A stretch of 63,492 bases of DNA from an uncultured bacterium (GTDB lineage Bacteria > Bacillota_I > Bacilli_A > Acholeplasmatales > Anaeroplasmataceae), in the NCBI GenBank assembly GCA_949292525.1, contig CASEZJ010000009.1, forward strand, positions 1-63,492, given 5' to 3'. This document shows positions 3,493-28,710 of this stretch, piece by piece. The first letter of the stretch is position 1. The number at the start of each line of letters is the position of its first letter. The notes beneath the pieces were generated by a model that was not told the DNA's origin, did not search any database, and saw only the letters and a program-made list of their open reading frames with translations. Both the position numbers and the translations under genes were made by a program.

Positions 3493-3963
3493 TTACCAAC
3501 GATAATGTGCAAAAGCCTTATTAGCTTCAGCCATTCTATGTGTATCTTCTTTTTTCTTGAATGCGCCACCTGTACCATTAGCTGCATCAATAATTTCTTT
3601 AGCTAGTTTTTCTTCCATAGTTTTATCATTTCTAAGTCTAGCATAACGAACTAACCATCTTAGTGCTAAAGTTTGTCTTCTTTCAGGACGAACTTCGATA
3701 GGTACTTGATAGTTTTGACCACCAATACGACGGCTCTTAACTTCTAAAACAGGCATAATGTTTTCTAATGCTTTATTAAACATTTCTAAAGCATCAGTGC
3801 CAGTTTGGTTTTGAACGCGTTCTAAAGCGTTATAAAATATAGTTTGTGCAGTTCCTTTTTTACCTTCTAACATAATTGCATTAATTGCTCTAGTAACAAC
3901 TTTTGAATTATATATTGGATCAGGAAGCACGTCTCTTTTTGCGATATGACCCTTACGAGGCAT
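3493..3963 (-). CDS. rpsG: 30S ribosomal protein S7
   Basis: S7 is the primary assembly protein of the 30S head and binds the 3' domain of 16S rRNA. The 156-residue length and sequence ([20 protein letters not shown] at the start, [15 protein letters not shown] in the middle, [10 protein letters not shown] at the end) are typical. AAGGAGG precedes the ATG. It is the second gene of the str operon, 33 bp after rpsL. In E. coli S7 represses this operon translationally; I see no clear S7 target here and do not claim it. Confidence 0.98.
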
Positions 3964-5819: not shown

Positions 5820-5848
5820 AACCAGCTTTTTTAAGGCTGGTTTTTTAG
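5820..5848 (+). terminator. terminator of tRNA-Arg
   Basis: AACCAGC (5820-5826) pairs with GCTGGTT (5836-5842), followed by a T run. The same hairpin with its upstream CATTAAAGATGATA occurs again at 7502-7545. Confidence 0.8.
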
Positions 5849-5915
5849 TTTGATTATCAAAATATCTACCAATTTATTTATATCTATGATATAACCCGAG
5901 TTTGCCAGTTAATAT

Positions 5916-7509: not shown

Positions 7510-7545
7510 ATGATAAAACCAGCCTTAAAAAGCTGGTTTTTAGTT
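7502..7545. terminator. second copy of the tRNA-Arg terminator
   Basis: CATTAAAGATGATA plus an AACCAGC/GCTGGTT hairpin repeats the sequence at 5805-5848. Here the hairpin has T runs on both sides and lies directly behind the ATPase gene that ends at 7553, so it probably terminates that gene on the minus strand. Confidence 0.75.
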
Positions 7546-7552
7546 CTATATT

Positions 7553-8851
7553 TTACAAAAACATTGACATATATAATGGTAATGTTAATTTATTATTCGC
7601 ATTCCCTACGTTACCATAAACATATTTATAAGCTTTTTGTGGCTTATATTTTAAAATATAATTATCTAAAGAAATACTTTTATTATTGCTAGCTTTAACT
7701 TCAATAGGTAAAACAAAAGCTTCATCATCTATTAAAAATTCTATTTCTTGTGTGCTATTGGAGTTTTTAAAATAATATAAATTAATATCCTTTTTAATTA
7801 ATATATCTGCTATTGCGCTTTCATATATTCCCCCTTTTATAGCACCTACTAACTTGTTATTTAATATAGCTTGTTTCAATGAGAACCCGTACATTGCTGT
7901 AAATAAGCCTATATCAGTTAAATAAATTTTAAATTCATTTATTATTTCATAACCTTTTAAAGGGAACAATGGTGTACTAACATTATAACAAAACTTGATT
8001 AATCCGGCATCTAATAACCAATTTAATGAATTTTCATATTTCCTGCTAGACGCATTTTTTTCGATTACTTTATATTGAAATTTAGTATACTCTTTACTTA
8101 ATTGCTTTGGTATTGAATCAAAACAAAGCTTAATTTTACCTTTTTCAACATTATTAGAATATTTTTCTATATCATAATAAAAACTATCTAATATTTTTTG
8201 TTGAACTAAAAAAGCTTCATAATAATTATTTTTAGCTATAAAAGTAGATACAACTTCTGGAAATCCGCCAATAACCATATATTCTTTGAATCTATTTAAA
8301 AAATAATCATTAATTGAATCTTCTATTTTAACTTTTTTTGCAAATTGTTCTTTTAATAATTTTATGCTTTCTTCACTTTGACCCAATCCCCATAAAAATT
8401 CTTCAAAATCCAAAGGATACATATTAATGTGTTTTTCATATCCAACCGGAATAGATTTAATTTCTTTATAATGCAAGCCTAATAAAGAACCGGTAGCTAT
8501 GACATCATATTTATTATCTATGGCCAAAAACTTCAGTGCTGTCCTAGCATTAGCACATTCTTCTATTTCATCTAAACATATGAGTGTATTTTTTTCTATA
8601 AATTTAACTCCAGGAATAAAATAAGACATTTTTTTATAAATATCTTCTGCCGTTAAACTATCGCTAAATATATCTTTCATTTTTGGATTCTCAATAAAAT
8701 TCAAATATATAAAGCTTTTATATTCTTTTTTACCAAATTCTTTAATTATATAAGTCTTGCCACATTGTCTAGGGCCTTTAATTAGTAAACACTCTTCAAC
8801 TTTATTCTTTTTCCATTTTAATAATTCATCGTATATTTTACGTTTCAACAT
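7553..8851 (-). CDS. AAA-type ATP-binding protein (DUF4143 class)
   Basis: The 432-residue protein has an N-terminal P-loop ATPase domain: GPRQCGKTY near residue 27 (Walker A), LICLDEIEE near residue 91 (Walker B) and IATGSLLG near residue 117 (sensor). A C-terminal DUF4143-type nuclease-fold region follows, including FLIDDEAFVLPIEVKAS. This large family is common in gut anaerobes and its function is mostly unknown; a role in accessory or defence functions has been suspected. I choose ATG 8849-8851, with AGGTGA just upstream, over an in-frame GTG nine bases earlier. It stands alone behind three 33-bp tandem repeats. Confidence 0.85.
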   Translation of the reverse strand: MLKRKIYDELLKWKKNKVEECLLIKGPRQCGKTYIIKEFGKKEYKSFIYLNFIENPKMKDIFSDSLTAEDIYKKMSYFIPGVKFIEKNTLICLDEIEECANARTALKFLAIDNKYDVIATGSLLGLHYKEIKSIPVGYEKHINMYPLDFEEFLWGLGQSEESIKLLKEQFAKKVKIEDSINDYFLNRFKEYMVIGGFPEVVSTFIAKNNYYEAFLVQQKILDSFYYDIEKYSNNVEKGKIKLCFDSIPKQLSKEYTKFQYKVIEKNASSRKYENSLNWLLDAGLIKFCYNVSTPLFPLKGYEIINEFKIYLTDIGLFTAMYGFSLKQAILNNKLVGAIKGGIYESAIADILIKKDINLYYFKNSNSTQEIEFLIDDEAFVLPIEVKASNNKSISLDNYILKYKPQKAYKYVYGNVGNANNKLTLPLYMSMFL

Positions 8852-8892
8852 AGTAATCACCTAATATTATTTTAACATATTTTTAATCAATT

Positions 8893-8975
8893 GCAACTAA
8901 TTTGACTATGTTTAATTAAAAATGCGCAACAAATTCGACTATGTTTTAATTAAAACATGCAACAAATTCGACTAT
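8893..8975. repeat. 33-bp tandem repeats upstream of the ATPase gene
   Basis: Three units start at 8893, 8926 and 8959, each opening with GCAACAAATTCGACTAT or a near copy. The first two continue into an AATTAA-centred palindrome, perfect in unit 2 as GTTTTAATTAAAAC (8943-8956). The third stops after the shared block. The array sits 40-125 bp upstream of the ATPase start and looks like an iteron or operator array. Confidence 0.85.
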
Positions 8976-9114
8976 TTTCTCTTGCTGAATAACGAAGTGT
9001 TAGAGATATTATTAAATGTTAAAATCATTTTTATTTAAAACAAACACAAATATACTTTTTTCCTAAACTAAAGATTATTTAAGATTTGGTACTGAAACAA
9101 CAAACCTTAACTTA
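8976..9114. other. non-coding stretch
   Basis: AT-rich sequence between the tandem repeats and the small membrane-protein gene. I see no open frame, clear promoter or terminator in it. Confidence 0.6.
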
Positions 9115-9234
9115 TTAATTATTAGAAAAATCATTTTTAACTTTTTCTTTTTTATCATATATTTTATTAGCAATACTACCCGCTAATAAACCTAATGCTG
9201 CTGCAACTGGTATAAGTAATAGCCATAGATTCAT
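9115..9234 (-). CDS. small membrane peptide, candidate type I toxin
   Basis: A 39-codon frame starts at ATG 9234 with a perfect GGAGGTG seven bases upstream (9240-9246). The peptide begins MNLWLLLIPVAAALGLLAGS and ends in a highly charged tail, NKIYDKKEKVKNDFSNN. One hydrophobic helix plus a charged tail is the layout of Fst/Ldr-like type I toxins. The leader carries a CCTCC stretch (complement of 9296-9300) that could pair with and mask the ribosome binding site, and a 13-bp inverted repeat. It lies in an accessory patch that already holds another toxin-antitoxin pair. Similarity to a named family is not established. Confidence 0.6.
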   Translation of the reverse strand: MNLWLLLIPVAAALGLLAGSIANKIYDKKEKVKNDFSNN

Positions 9235-9261
9235 TTTTTCACCTCCATATAATGTTTATAA

Positions 9262-9332
9262 ATTAAGGCTTAAGCATATAAGGAGAAATTAAAAAGGAGG
9301 AAAGGAAATCGAAACAAACCTTAAGCCTTAAT
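9262..9332. repeat. 13-bp inverted repeat in the leader of the small peptide
   Basis: Positions 9262-9274 and 9320-9332 are perfect reverse complements around a 45-base loop. The loop is purine-rich on the plus strand and holds two GGAG motifs. On the minus-strand mRNA it presents CCTCC and CTCCTT, complementary to the peptide gene's own ribosome binding site. Confidence 0.85.
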
Positions 9333-9430
9333 CTATAAAGTTATATATTAATAATTCACAAATAGAAAAAGTTGCGATTTAAAAACATTAACTTTTTACA
9401 ACTAAATTATAGTTAAATAACTTCTTATTT

Positions 9431-9463
9431 TAGACGTTTTTTTAAAAAAACATCTATTTTTTT
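9431..9463 (+). terminator. intrinsic terminator
   Basis: TAGACG-T7 pairs with A7-CATCTA with one mismatch and is followed by T7. No coding gene lies upstream on this strand. Confidence 0.65.
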
Positions 9464-9517
9464 AAATAAAATTTAGATTATTAAAAATATATATAAAAGC
9501 CTCTCTACATATATGGT

Positions 9518-9563
9518 AATCAGCTGATTTGCTGTTGAATTTTACGATAAATTAATATATAAT
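9518..9563 (+). promoter_or_regulatory. promoter and palindrome of the toxin-antitoxin pair
   Basis: TTGAAT (9535-9540) and TATAAT (9558-9563) are 17 bases apart. The perfect palindrome AATCAGCTGATT (9518-9529) sits six bases upstream of the -35 box, and GCTGT/ACAGC half-sites bracket the promoter. Antitoxins of this type normally repress their own operon, so these are the likely operators. Confidence 0.7.
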
Positions 9564-9595
9564 ATTTACAGCAAAGGTAGAAAGGAGAACCCGTT

Positions 9596-9841
9596 ATGCC
9601 AAATATAAAACCAGTATCAGATTTAAGAAATTATAATGAAGTTCTTAAAAATGTCAGTGTTGGTGAACCTGTGTTTTTAACGAAAAATGGTAGGGGTAGA
9701 TACGCTATTGTAGATATTGAAGAGTACGAAAAAACGAAAGCTATCATAAAATTGATGAGTGAGCTTTCTAAAGGTGAAAAATCCGCTCAAAATAAAGGCT
9801 GGATAAACTTAGAAGATGTCGAAAAACATTTTGGGTTATAA
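9596..9841 (+). CDS. Phd/YefM-family antitoxin
   Basis: The 81-residue protein (MPNIKPVSDLRNYNEVLKNV at the start, VFLTKNGRGRYAIVDIEEYE in the middle) has the Phd/YefM fold: an N-terminal DNA-binding region and a C-terminal tail that would wrap the toxin. AAGGAGA precedes the ATG. The stop codon is followed directly by the toxin ATG, the standard arrangement for co-translation. It would neutralise the toxin and repress the operon. Confidence 0.88.
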   Translation: MPNIKPVSDLRNYNEVLKNVSVGEPVFLTKNGRGRYAIVDIEEYEKTKAIIKLMSELSKGEKSAQNKGWINLEDVEKHFGL

Positions 9842-10147
9842 ATGACTAAAATCAAATTTTCACCAGATGCCCTTTCTGATTTAGAACAAATTAAAAGATA
9901 TATTACATTAGAACTTTGTAATGAACAAGCGGCAATTAAAGTAATTAGTAATATCATTAAAAAAATACATATTCTAGAAACGTTTCCTCTTAGTGGTGCC
10001 CAACTTTCATCAATAATTAACATAGAAACTAATTATCGTTTTTTAGTTTGTGAAAATTATAATGTCTTTTATAATTTTAAAAATGACATAATTTATATAA
10101 TTCGAATCCTTTATAATCGAAGAAATTTTATGGAAATCCTTTTTTAA
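9842..10147 (+). CDS. RelE/ParE-family toxin
   Basis: The 101-residue protein belongs to the RelE/ParE superfamily: FSPDALSDLEQIKRYI helix at the N-terminus, then YRFLVCENYNVFYNF and IIYIIRILYNRRNF strands at the C-terminus. The RILYNRRNF motif suits the ParE/RelE plasmid-stabilisation branch. Whether it cleaves mRNA on the ribosome or inhibits gyrase cannot be decided here. It starts at the base after the antitoxin stop. A decayed copy of its first third lies at 7414-7509. Confidence 0.85.
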   Translation: MTKIKFSPDALSDLEQIKRYITLELCNEQAAIKVISNIIKKIHILETFPLSGAQLSSIINIETNYRFLVCENYNVFYNFKNDIIYIIRILYNRRNFMEILF

Positions 10148-10183: not shown

Positions 10184-10211
10184 TTGCTTTTTTAACTTGT
10201 TATGGTACAAT
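10184..10211 (+). promoter_or_regulatory. promoter of the candidate small RNA
   Basis: TTGCTT (10184-10189) and TACAAT (10206-10211) are 16 bases apart, 37 bases after the toxin stop. A start near 10218 would give a transcript that opens directly into a series of hairpins. Confidence 0.5.
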
Positions 10212-10217
10212 ACAAAC

Positions 10218-10320
10218 ACAAATAAAAGGATGTTTTTTTCATCCATTTCAATGTCATATGACATTTTGGGCTGGCTTTTGTCATGGTCCACCAACGGCGG
10301 GAAATAGTCCCGCTTATTTT
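10218..10320 (+). ncRNA. candidate small structured RNA, family not recognised
   Basis: About 100 nt with a promoter in front and a good terminator behind. Elements in order: hairpin GGATG-T7-CATCC (10228-10244); ATGACA/TGTCAT stem (10258-10263 with 10279-10284) that competes with the palindrome AATGTCATATGACATT (10250-10265); loop TTGG that could pair with CCAA at 10291-10294, giving a pseudoknot; and terminator GCGGGA-loop-TCCCGC (10297-10313) with a T-rich tail. No open frame fits inside. No gene follows within 800 bases, so it is not an obvious riboswitch. It does not match any RNA family I know. Confidence 0.5.
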
Positions 10321-10414
10321 ATTGTTAAAGGCGTATATCCATCTCACAAGTACAATAATTTATATTTCTATTAGCTAAATAATACGCTGATTTTTTATAT
10401 AAATTAATTAACAA

Positions 10415-10680: not shown

Positions 10681-11142
10681 CTAGGTGGATTTCACATTTC
10701 TTAAAGTTATATTAATTTACGTTAGTTAACATGCTATATCTTTTTATGCCATCAAATATCATTATTTCATAGATCATTTGACATTATCTAGATAAATCAT
10801 ATATTCTCTTTAACATTGAAAGCATCATAAGATATTTTTTTGCTGCTACGTTTTAAAAAAATTTATAATTGAAATAAGGTAGTAAATGGCGTCACAACAG
10901 CATAGCCTTATAATTTAGGTTCTCTTAAACCCTACTAATCACCAAATTTATTTATTGACATCATGTAATTCTAAAACTAATTCTATATCAATATCATTTA
11001 GCTAGTTTCTCAAAGAAACTATTGCACTAGAACTTAAAAGTATAAAAACGTTAAGAAAAAAACAATCGATAAATTTAAAATGCTTTGTTTCATTTATTAA
11101 CTTGAAAGTAATTTACTTTAAAGTAAATAGTGAGGTGGGAAA
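10681..11142. other. decayed non-coding stretch
   Basis: No frame longer than a few dozen codons on either strand, and stops are frequent. A short hairpin (TAGTTTC/GAAACTA) lies near 11008. It looks like eroded accessory DNA. Confidence 0.6.
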
Positions 11143-28567: not shown

Positions 28568-28641
28568 GCCCCTTTAGTTTAATGGTAAAACGAAGCAATG
28601 GTAATGCTTAAATCCAAGTTCGATTCTTGGTTGGGGCACCA
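28568..28641 (+). tRNA. tRNA-Thr (anticodon GGU)
   Basis: A 74-nt cloverleaf with encoded CCA. The D stem is GTTT/AAAC, the anticodon stem AAGCA/TGCTT with loop ATGGTAA (anticodon GGT), and the T arm CCAAG-TTCGATT-CTTGG. G1-C72 and C2-G71 fit Thr identity. The acceptor stem has five good pairs but two U-U mismatches at 6-67 and 7-66, which is unusual. A T7 run follows. Confidence 0.8.
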
Positions 28642-28644
28642 TTT

Positions 28645-28710
28645 TTTTTAATGGTAAAACGAAGCAATGGTAATGCTTAAATCCAAGTTCGATTCTTGGT
28701 TGGGGCACCA
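28645..28710 (+). pseudogene. truncated tandem copy of tRNA-Thr
   Basis: From the D stem to the CCA end this repeats the first tRNA exactly at a 69-base offset. The 5' acceptor strand and positions 8-9 are missing and replaced by a T run, so a full acceptor stem cannot form. It lies in the same transcript, directly before the next gene's ribosome binding site. Confidence 0.85.

Follow-up and report, generated by a model that had tools for sequence, protein, structure and literature searches.

A small single-helix peptide gene with a conserved hairpin leader, possibly of type I toxin kind, in an uncultured Acholeplasmatales genus

The window, that is, the whole 63,492-nucleotide stretch of DNA analysed here, carries on its minus strand a short ORF for a 39-residue peptide, preceded by a hairpin-containing leader and followed by a hairpin terminator (Table 1). 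What is observed is the ORF with its Shine-Dalgarno (SD) sequence, a conserved leader, a leader hairpin at the level of sequence, and the hairpin of the terminator. The element is present in four of eight genomes of one uncultured Acholeplasmatales genus, namely that of the window and three relatives, G002, G006 and G007. A good ribosome binding site (RBS) had been claimed for the peptide in a preliminary description of this DNA, and the claim was borne out: among the ATG ORFs of 25 to 70 aa in the window, this is the only one with a GGAGG at working distance. Since the ORF also overlaps no large ORF, the GGAGG is not regarded as a product of chance. Its counterpart reads GGAAG in G002 and GAGG in G007. 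The peptide had further been described as a single helix with a charged tail, which agrees with the AlphaFold2 model (one helix, residues 7–37, mean pLDDT 85). The best 19-residue stretch has a hydropathy of 2.26, and the C-terminal tail is DKKEKVK. The peptide thus fits the usual type I toxin pattern of a hydrophobic single-helix peptide of fewer than 60 aa, often with a cationic C-terminus. A single helix with a cationic tail is the form usual among type I toxins that act on membranes (PMC8309996).

Table 1. Features of the peptide locus and its neighbours (positions in the window)
Feature	Position	Strand	Remark
Small-peptide ORF, MNLWLLLIPVAAALGLLAGSIANKIYDKKEKVKNDFSNN, 39 aa	9115..9234	minus	One TM helix and Lys-rich tail
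Shine-Dalgarno GGAGG	9242..9246	minus	7 nt 5' of the ATG (GGAGGTG)
TATAAT claimed as antisense promoter	9248..9253	plus	Not supported
AT-only stem and T-run claimed as antisense terminator	9431..9463	plus	Not supported
Candidate -10 TATAAT of peptide mRNA	9406..9411	minus	Same sequence and place in G002
-35 of candidate promoter, TCTAAA, poor	9429..9434	minus	PWM scan
Hairpin terminator of peptide mRNA	9079..9110	minus	T-tail weak in window, good in G002
Leader hairpin 3' arm	9255..9274	minus	Perfectly kept in G002 and G007
Leader hairpin loop, 45 nt, 80% pyrimidine	9275..9319	minus	Contains UUUCCUUUCCUCCUUUUU and UCUCCUU
Leader hairpin 5' arm	9320..9339	minus	Stem in G002 has a mismatch and a wobble pair
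Conserved noncoding block	9235..9440	minus	93% identity to G002 outside gaps; ORF 81%
Phd/YefM-type antitoxin, neighbour	9596..9841	plus	PF02604, only one above cut-off in the genome
ParE-type toxin, neighbour	9842..10147	plus	PF05016
AAA_14/DUF4143 ATPase, neighbour	7553..8860	minus	PADLOC candidate defence family PDC-S01

The leader contains an inverted repeat with 20-nt arms that are 95% complementary. The preliminary description had reported it as a 13-bp repeat; the repeat is real and unique in the window, but its length had been set too short. No other inverted repeat of comparable quality exists in the window, and none arose in 15 first-order Markov simulations of it, so the hairpin is not attributable to chance. 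Each arm itself contains an 11-bp palindrome (TTAAGGCTTAA and TTAAGCCTTAA). Instead of forming an RNA hairpin, the two palindromic arms could serve as a DNA operator to which a dimeric regulator binds at a pair of sites. Both 11-mers occur nowhere else in the 1.24-Mb assembly, and the ORF-side arm is perfect in the window, G002 and G007, which speaks for an operator. Yet the complementarity reaches well past the palindromes over the full arms, and the distal arm of G002 still pairs although it is no longer a perfect palindrome. A palindrome regulon was rejected, as no further sites were found elsewhere in the genome, and we consider the operator very unlikely. A direct repeat, AACAAACCTTAA, common to the leader arm and the terminator (9099–9110 and 9313–9324), was also set aside because G002 does not have it.

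The best minus-strand promoter candidate in the PWM scan is the TATAAT upstream of the hairpin, from which the peptide mRNA would start at about 9399. All four copies retain the terminator hairpin that follows the ORF, and its stem in G006 carries one two-sided compensatory change (A-U to G-C) and two changes from U-A to U-G. The retained and compensated hairpin supports a separate transcription unit on the minus strand. In the window copy, the stem is reduced to 10 pairs and has no good T-run. A structured leader and an own terminator are both characteristic of type I toxin mRNAs, and both are present here.

On the plus strand, a TATAAT and a terminator had been proposed as the ends of an overlapping antisense RNA, and neither signal held up. 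The hexamer occurs 123 times on the plus strand of the window. By PWM, the copy in question scores in the top 0.3% of all positions, so that each strand would show a site as good every 330 nt or so; it has a poor -35, and its counterpart in G002 scores lower. A promoter scan from 8900 to 9530 found no promoter. Mapped promoters of Acholeplasma laidlawii show a distinct -35 together with a TRTG extension (PMC5138195), and both are missing from this site. The stem proposed as terminator is AT-only, contains a C-A mismatch and has a folding energy of -5.3 kcal/mol; the terminator scan did not call it. Its G002 counterpart is weaker and has no adjoining T-run. Because the candidate -35 on the minus strand is poor too, the weak promoter does not exclude an antisense RNA and only removes positive evidence for one. 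The statement that all parts of a type I system are present therefore stands for the toxin-like peptide, its own terminator and its leader, but not for the antisense RNA, which has no sequence support.

An anti-SD CCTCC had also been noted in the peptide's own leader. The motif exists (minus strand, 9300–9296) and lies in the hairpin loop, but it reads CCTCA in G002; its pairing with the SD is not conserved, and a conserved anti-SD was rejected for the window copy. When loop-RBS pairing is compared with that of shuffled loops, the 12 bp of G002 stand out (p = 0.004), but the window pairing does not (p = 0.35). The first folds resembled a 5'-3' long-distance lock, before comparison with 43 genes of the window. 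The cost of opening the start site, calculated without pseudoknots, is 8.3 kcal/mol in the window and 10.2 kcal/mol in G002, against a median of 7.8 kcal/mol for the 43 genes. With the leader alone, the cost falls below average. After this comparison, RBS masking was no longer taken as a special feature, since the predicted masking of the start site is ordinary for the genome.

A rival explanation is that the ORF encodes a stand-alone small membrane protein, not necessarily toxic, whose structured leader stabilises the mRNA or senses a signal, with no antisense RNA involved. All the sequence evidence is on the minus strand (the SD, the compensated terminator and the -10 that is identical in G002), the plus-strand transcription unit has no support, and with the leader hairpin in place the RBS is still more accessible than average. 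But a leader conserved above its own ORF calls for an explanation, and patchiness in a spot of toxin-antitoxin (TA) and defence genes, together with repeated decay, is less expected of a housekeeping small protein. We regard this explanation as doubtful, though well within reach.

The leader, about 210 nt long, is 92.6% identical between the window and G002 outside gaps and 89.8% identical by BLAST with gaps. In the same two genomes, the coding DNA of tuf, rpsG and rpsL is 94% identical and that of fusA 89%, as is the tuf-fusA spacer. The leader is thus constrained like ribosomal-protein coding DNA and above the peptide, provided that the copies came by descent and not by recent transfer, and its closeness to tuf, rpsG and rpsL points to strong constraint on the noncoding part. 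The preliminary description had staked its reading on conservation of the peptide frame in relatives, which holds only in part. The frame is open in three of the four copies, and the open copies differ only by in-frame 3-nt indels; the G006 copy is frameshifted, and constraint is weak. The dN/dS is about 0.4–0.55 (0.40–0.54), and pairwise simulation did not reject neutral evolution of the peptide (p 0.15–0.36). Judged from these comparisons, purifying selection on the peptide is weak. The N-terminal MNLWLL and the IPVAA are identical and the start and SD region are kept in three copies, while the tail varies in length and frame. Taken as a whole, the ORF is a genuine small gene with a constrained hairpin leader.

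The excess of leader over ORF identity could also reflect a noncoding regulatory RNA of about 200 nt, or a cis-acting DNA or RNA element, in which the short ORF is secondary or merely tolerated. Besides the weak coding constraint, the G006 frameshift and the variable tail would fit such an element. Against it, the ORF is the only SD-bearing short ORF of the window, with the start region and the two peptide motifs preserved and with indels of 3 nt only among its open copies, and no Rfam family matches. We therefore hold a noncoding element to be unlikely.

Only two copies, those of the window and G002, are complete. In G007, the frame is open and the loop is interrupted by a mobile-element insertion, the end of a repeat. 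This end (G007 C45 1–98, and ten other sites) belongs to a high-copy, near-identical repeat terminating in ...TATACCGATTGCTTTT; it has 11 matches in the assembly that are 99–100% identical, and the flanks read differ among one another. The inspected copies sit at the ends of contigs, where a recent insertion sequence would be expected to lie. In G006, the leader hairpin is lost as well as the frame. Beyond the genus, the other genera of the family yielded no relative, and no homologue of the peptide turned up among 160 order-level genomes or in samples of the class (395 genomes) and the phylum (392). An order-level match in G146 (E = 4e-4) falls within a frame of 111 aa and was put down to chance. 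A search of 84,980 species genomes returned only G002 and G007 again, and viral contigs, phages and plasmids yielded no peptide relative. A covariance search of the leader, a check that the preliminary description had proposed, recovered only the four known loci in 55 genomes of the family, and a leader DNA search in the genus gave the known loci and short AT-rich chance matches. Pfam, NCBIfam, PHROGs, PADLOC and PDB returned only insignificant matches for the peptide, and Rfam gave none for 9040–9600 at gathering score or at E up to 1. The view that neither peptide nor RNA matches a known family was thus upheld. By these searches, the element is outside known families and confined to one genus.

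Such a distribution might be that of a dying relic, a small-ORF cassette already losing its function in the genus, the window included. Half of the copies are broken, four of the eight genomes are without the element, and the window terminator has its stem shortened and its T-tail lost. Set against this are the leader identity and the near-perfect hairpin of the window, which indicate recent or present selection. A relic of this kind is hardly credible.

In each genome that carries it, the element is no more than about 1 kb away from the sole Phd-family antitoxin above the Pfam cut-off. The adjoining type II pair is Phd-ParE in the window and Phd-Doc in the relatives, Doc being recognised by sequence inspection. 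The element precedes phd-doc in G006 and G007, follows doc in G002, and is divergent from its neighbour pair in the window. The four loci are partly syntenic, so the association with Phd does not amount to four independent events. The spot, one where genes are shuffled, also carries AAA_14/DUF4143 ATPases of PDC-S01 type. Compared with the element-free genome G001, G002 has an extra segment of about 560 bp that contains the element and is flanked by a 14-bp direct repeat, AAAAGCTGGTTTTT, which is part of a tRNA-Arg terminator.

Several further observations were made in this region. AAAAGCTGGTTTTT and its variants form direct repeats around inserts, the peptide element in G002 and lrgAB in the window (window 5820–5850 and 7515–7542; L045 6786–6799 and 7348–7361; L050 6239), and this terminator repeat may mark a hotspot of integration or recombination. 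Just upstream of the ATPase gene, the window has about three tandem 33-bp repeats (GCAACAAATTCGACTATGTTTTAATTAAAA, 8893–8990), and similar repeats precede the same gene in G007 (L042, about 3495–3550); they look like an operator array for it. A degenerate remnant (10876–11014), flanked by the Phd-ParE pair and a truncated AAA_14 ORF, has 74–77% DNA identity to the phd-doc genes of the relatives; an older phd-doc seems to have been lost from the window. An intergenic block of about 175 nt (10209–10383) contains a G+C-rich hairpin (GGCGGGAAATAGTCCCGC), is 88% identical to noncoding DNA that precedes the ATPase gene of G007 (L042 3266–3437), and has no Rfam match at gathering score. Farther away, a partial, weak tRNA match (28646–28699; 31.8 bits, positions 10–63 of 71) directly follows a full tRNA (28568–28638) and is possibly a decayed tRNA.

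The form of the peptide, the layout of the mRNA and the patchy, decaying occurrence beside a type II TA pair make the toxin side of a type I system the most plausible role. We tentatively favour a self-contained small gene of type-I-toxin kind, its antitoxin unproven, at somewhat short of an even chance. In favour are the SD-bearing ORF, its frame kept in three copies, the single helix with a cationic tail, the leader conserved above the ORF, the own terminator and the hairpin beyond chance, as well as the repeat-bounded segment of G002 and the occurrence in half of the genomes, with two separately damaged copies, in a PDC-S01/phd spot. Points against are antisense signals no better than chance, ordinary RBS masking, the window's loop-RBS pairing, the weak selection on the peptide, and the G007 ORF that is still open despite its interrupted leader. 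With only two complete copies and partly syntenic loci, the reading is also limited. As the antisense RNA has no sequence support and the toxicity is inferred, the element is not filed as a type I system.

If the gene is of type-I-toxin kind, a minus-strand mRNA would begin near 9399, with a leader of about 165 nt that folds into a strong hairpin of 20 bp, its large loop being rich in pyrimidines. This mRNA would be translated into the membrane peptide with its lysine-rich tail and would end at the terminator. In excess, the peptide would probably act on the membrane of its own cell. Expression control would sit in the leader: most likely, an RNA from the opposite strand, with a hairpin of its own exposing the complementary purine-rich loop, would meet the leader loop, and this loop-loop contact would block or destroy the peptide mRNA. 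The stronger proposal, a first Acholeplasmatales type I TA family whose toxin and antitoxin form mirror-image hairpins that meet through the 45-nt pyrimidine loop and its purine complement, appears rather unlikely. Should the antitoxin RNA exist, RNA-controlled peptide toxins would extend to Acholeplasmatales, with an added family of loop-loop design. Should it not, the locus would still clearly exemplify a short gene with a noncoding leader more conserved than its protein.

Systems of the tisB/istR-1 type are divergent antisense systems. As in these, the pairing site of the proposed antisense RNA would be in the leader, 5' of the SD and clear of the coding part; unlike them, the locus has no supported antisense promoter. 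With Fst/Ldr toxins, the peptide shares its size, one helix with a proline in the N-terminal half, and a charged tail. It lacks the PxxxG motif reported for that family (PMC8309996), since P9 to G15 gives PxxxxxG and the G is lost in G007, and no Fst or Ldr Pfam profile matched it at E up to 10. Like aapA/IsoA of Helicobacter pylori, the locus combines a small cationic single-helix membrane peptide, a structured mRNA, and CU-rich anti-SD sequences in the toxin mRNA (PMC6733600). It differs in having no sequence match (Pfam, NCBIfam), no conserved anti-SD and no supported antisense promoter, and in its ordinary RBS masking. Membership in Fst/Ldr or aapA was rejected on the missing PxxxG, the lack of a profile match and the anti-SD not kept. 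Three modules of Clostridioides difficile, CD2517.1-RCd8, CD2907.1-RCd9 and CD0956.2-RCd10, are described as type I (PMC6563280). They overlap a convergent antisense RNA, whereas the peptide locus has no evident convergent promoter and its sequence beyond the terminator is not conserved. These modules resemble the present gene in their hydrophobic N-terminus, Lys-rich C-terminus and long 5' UTR, and, as here, they show no homology to other type I toxins (PMC6563280).
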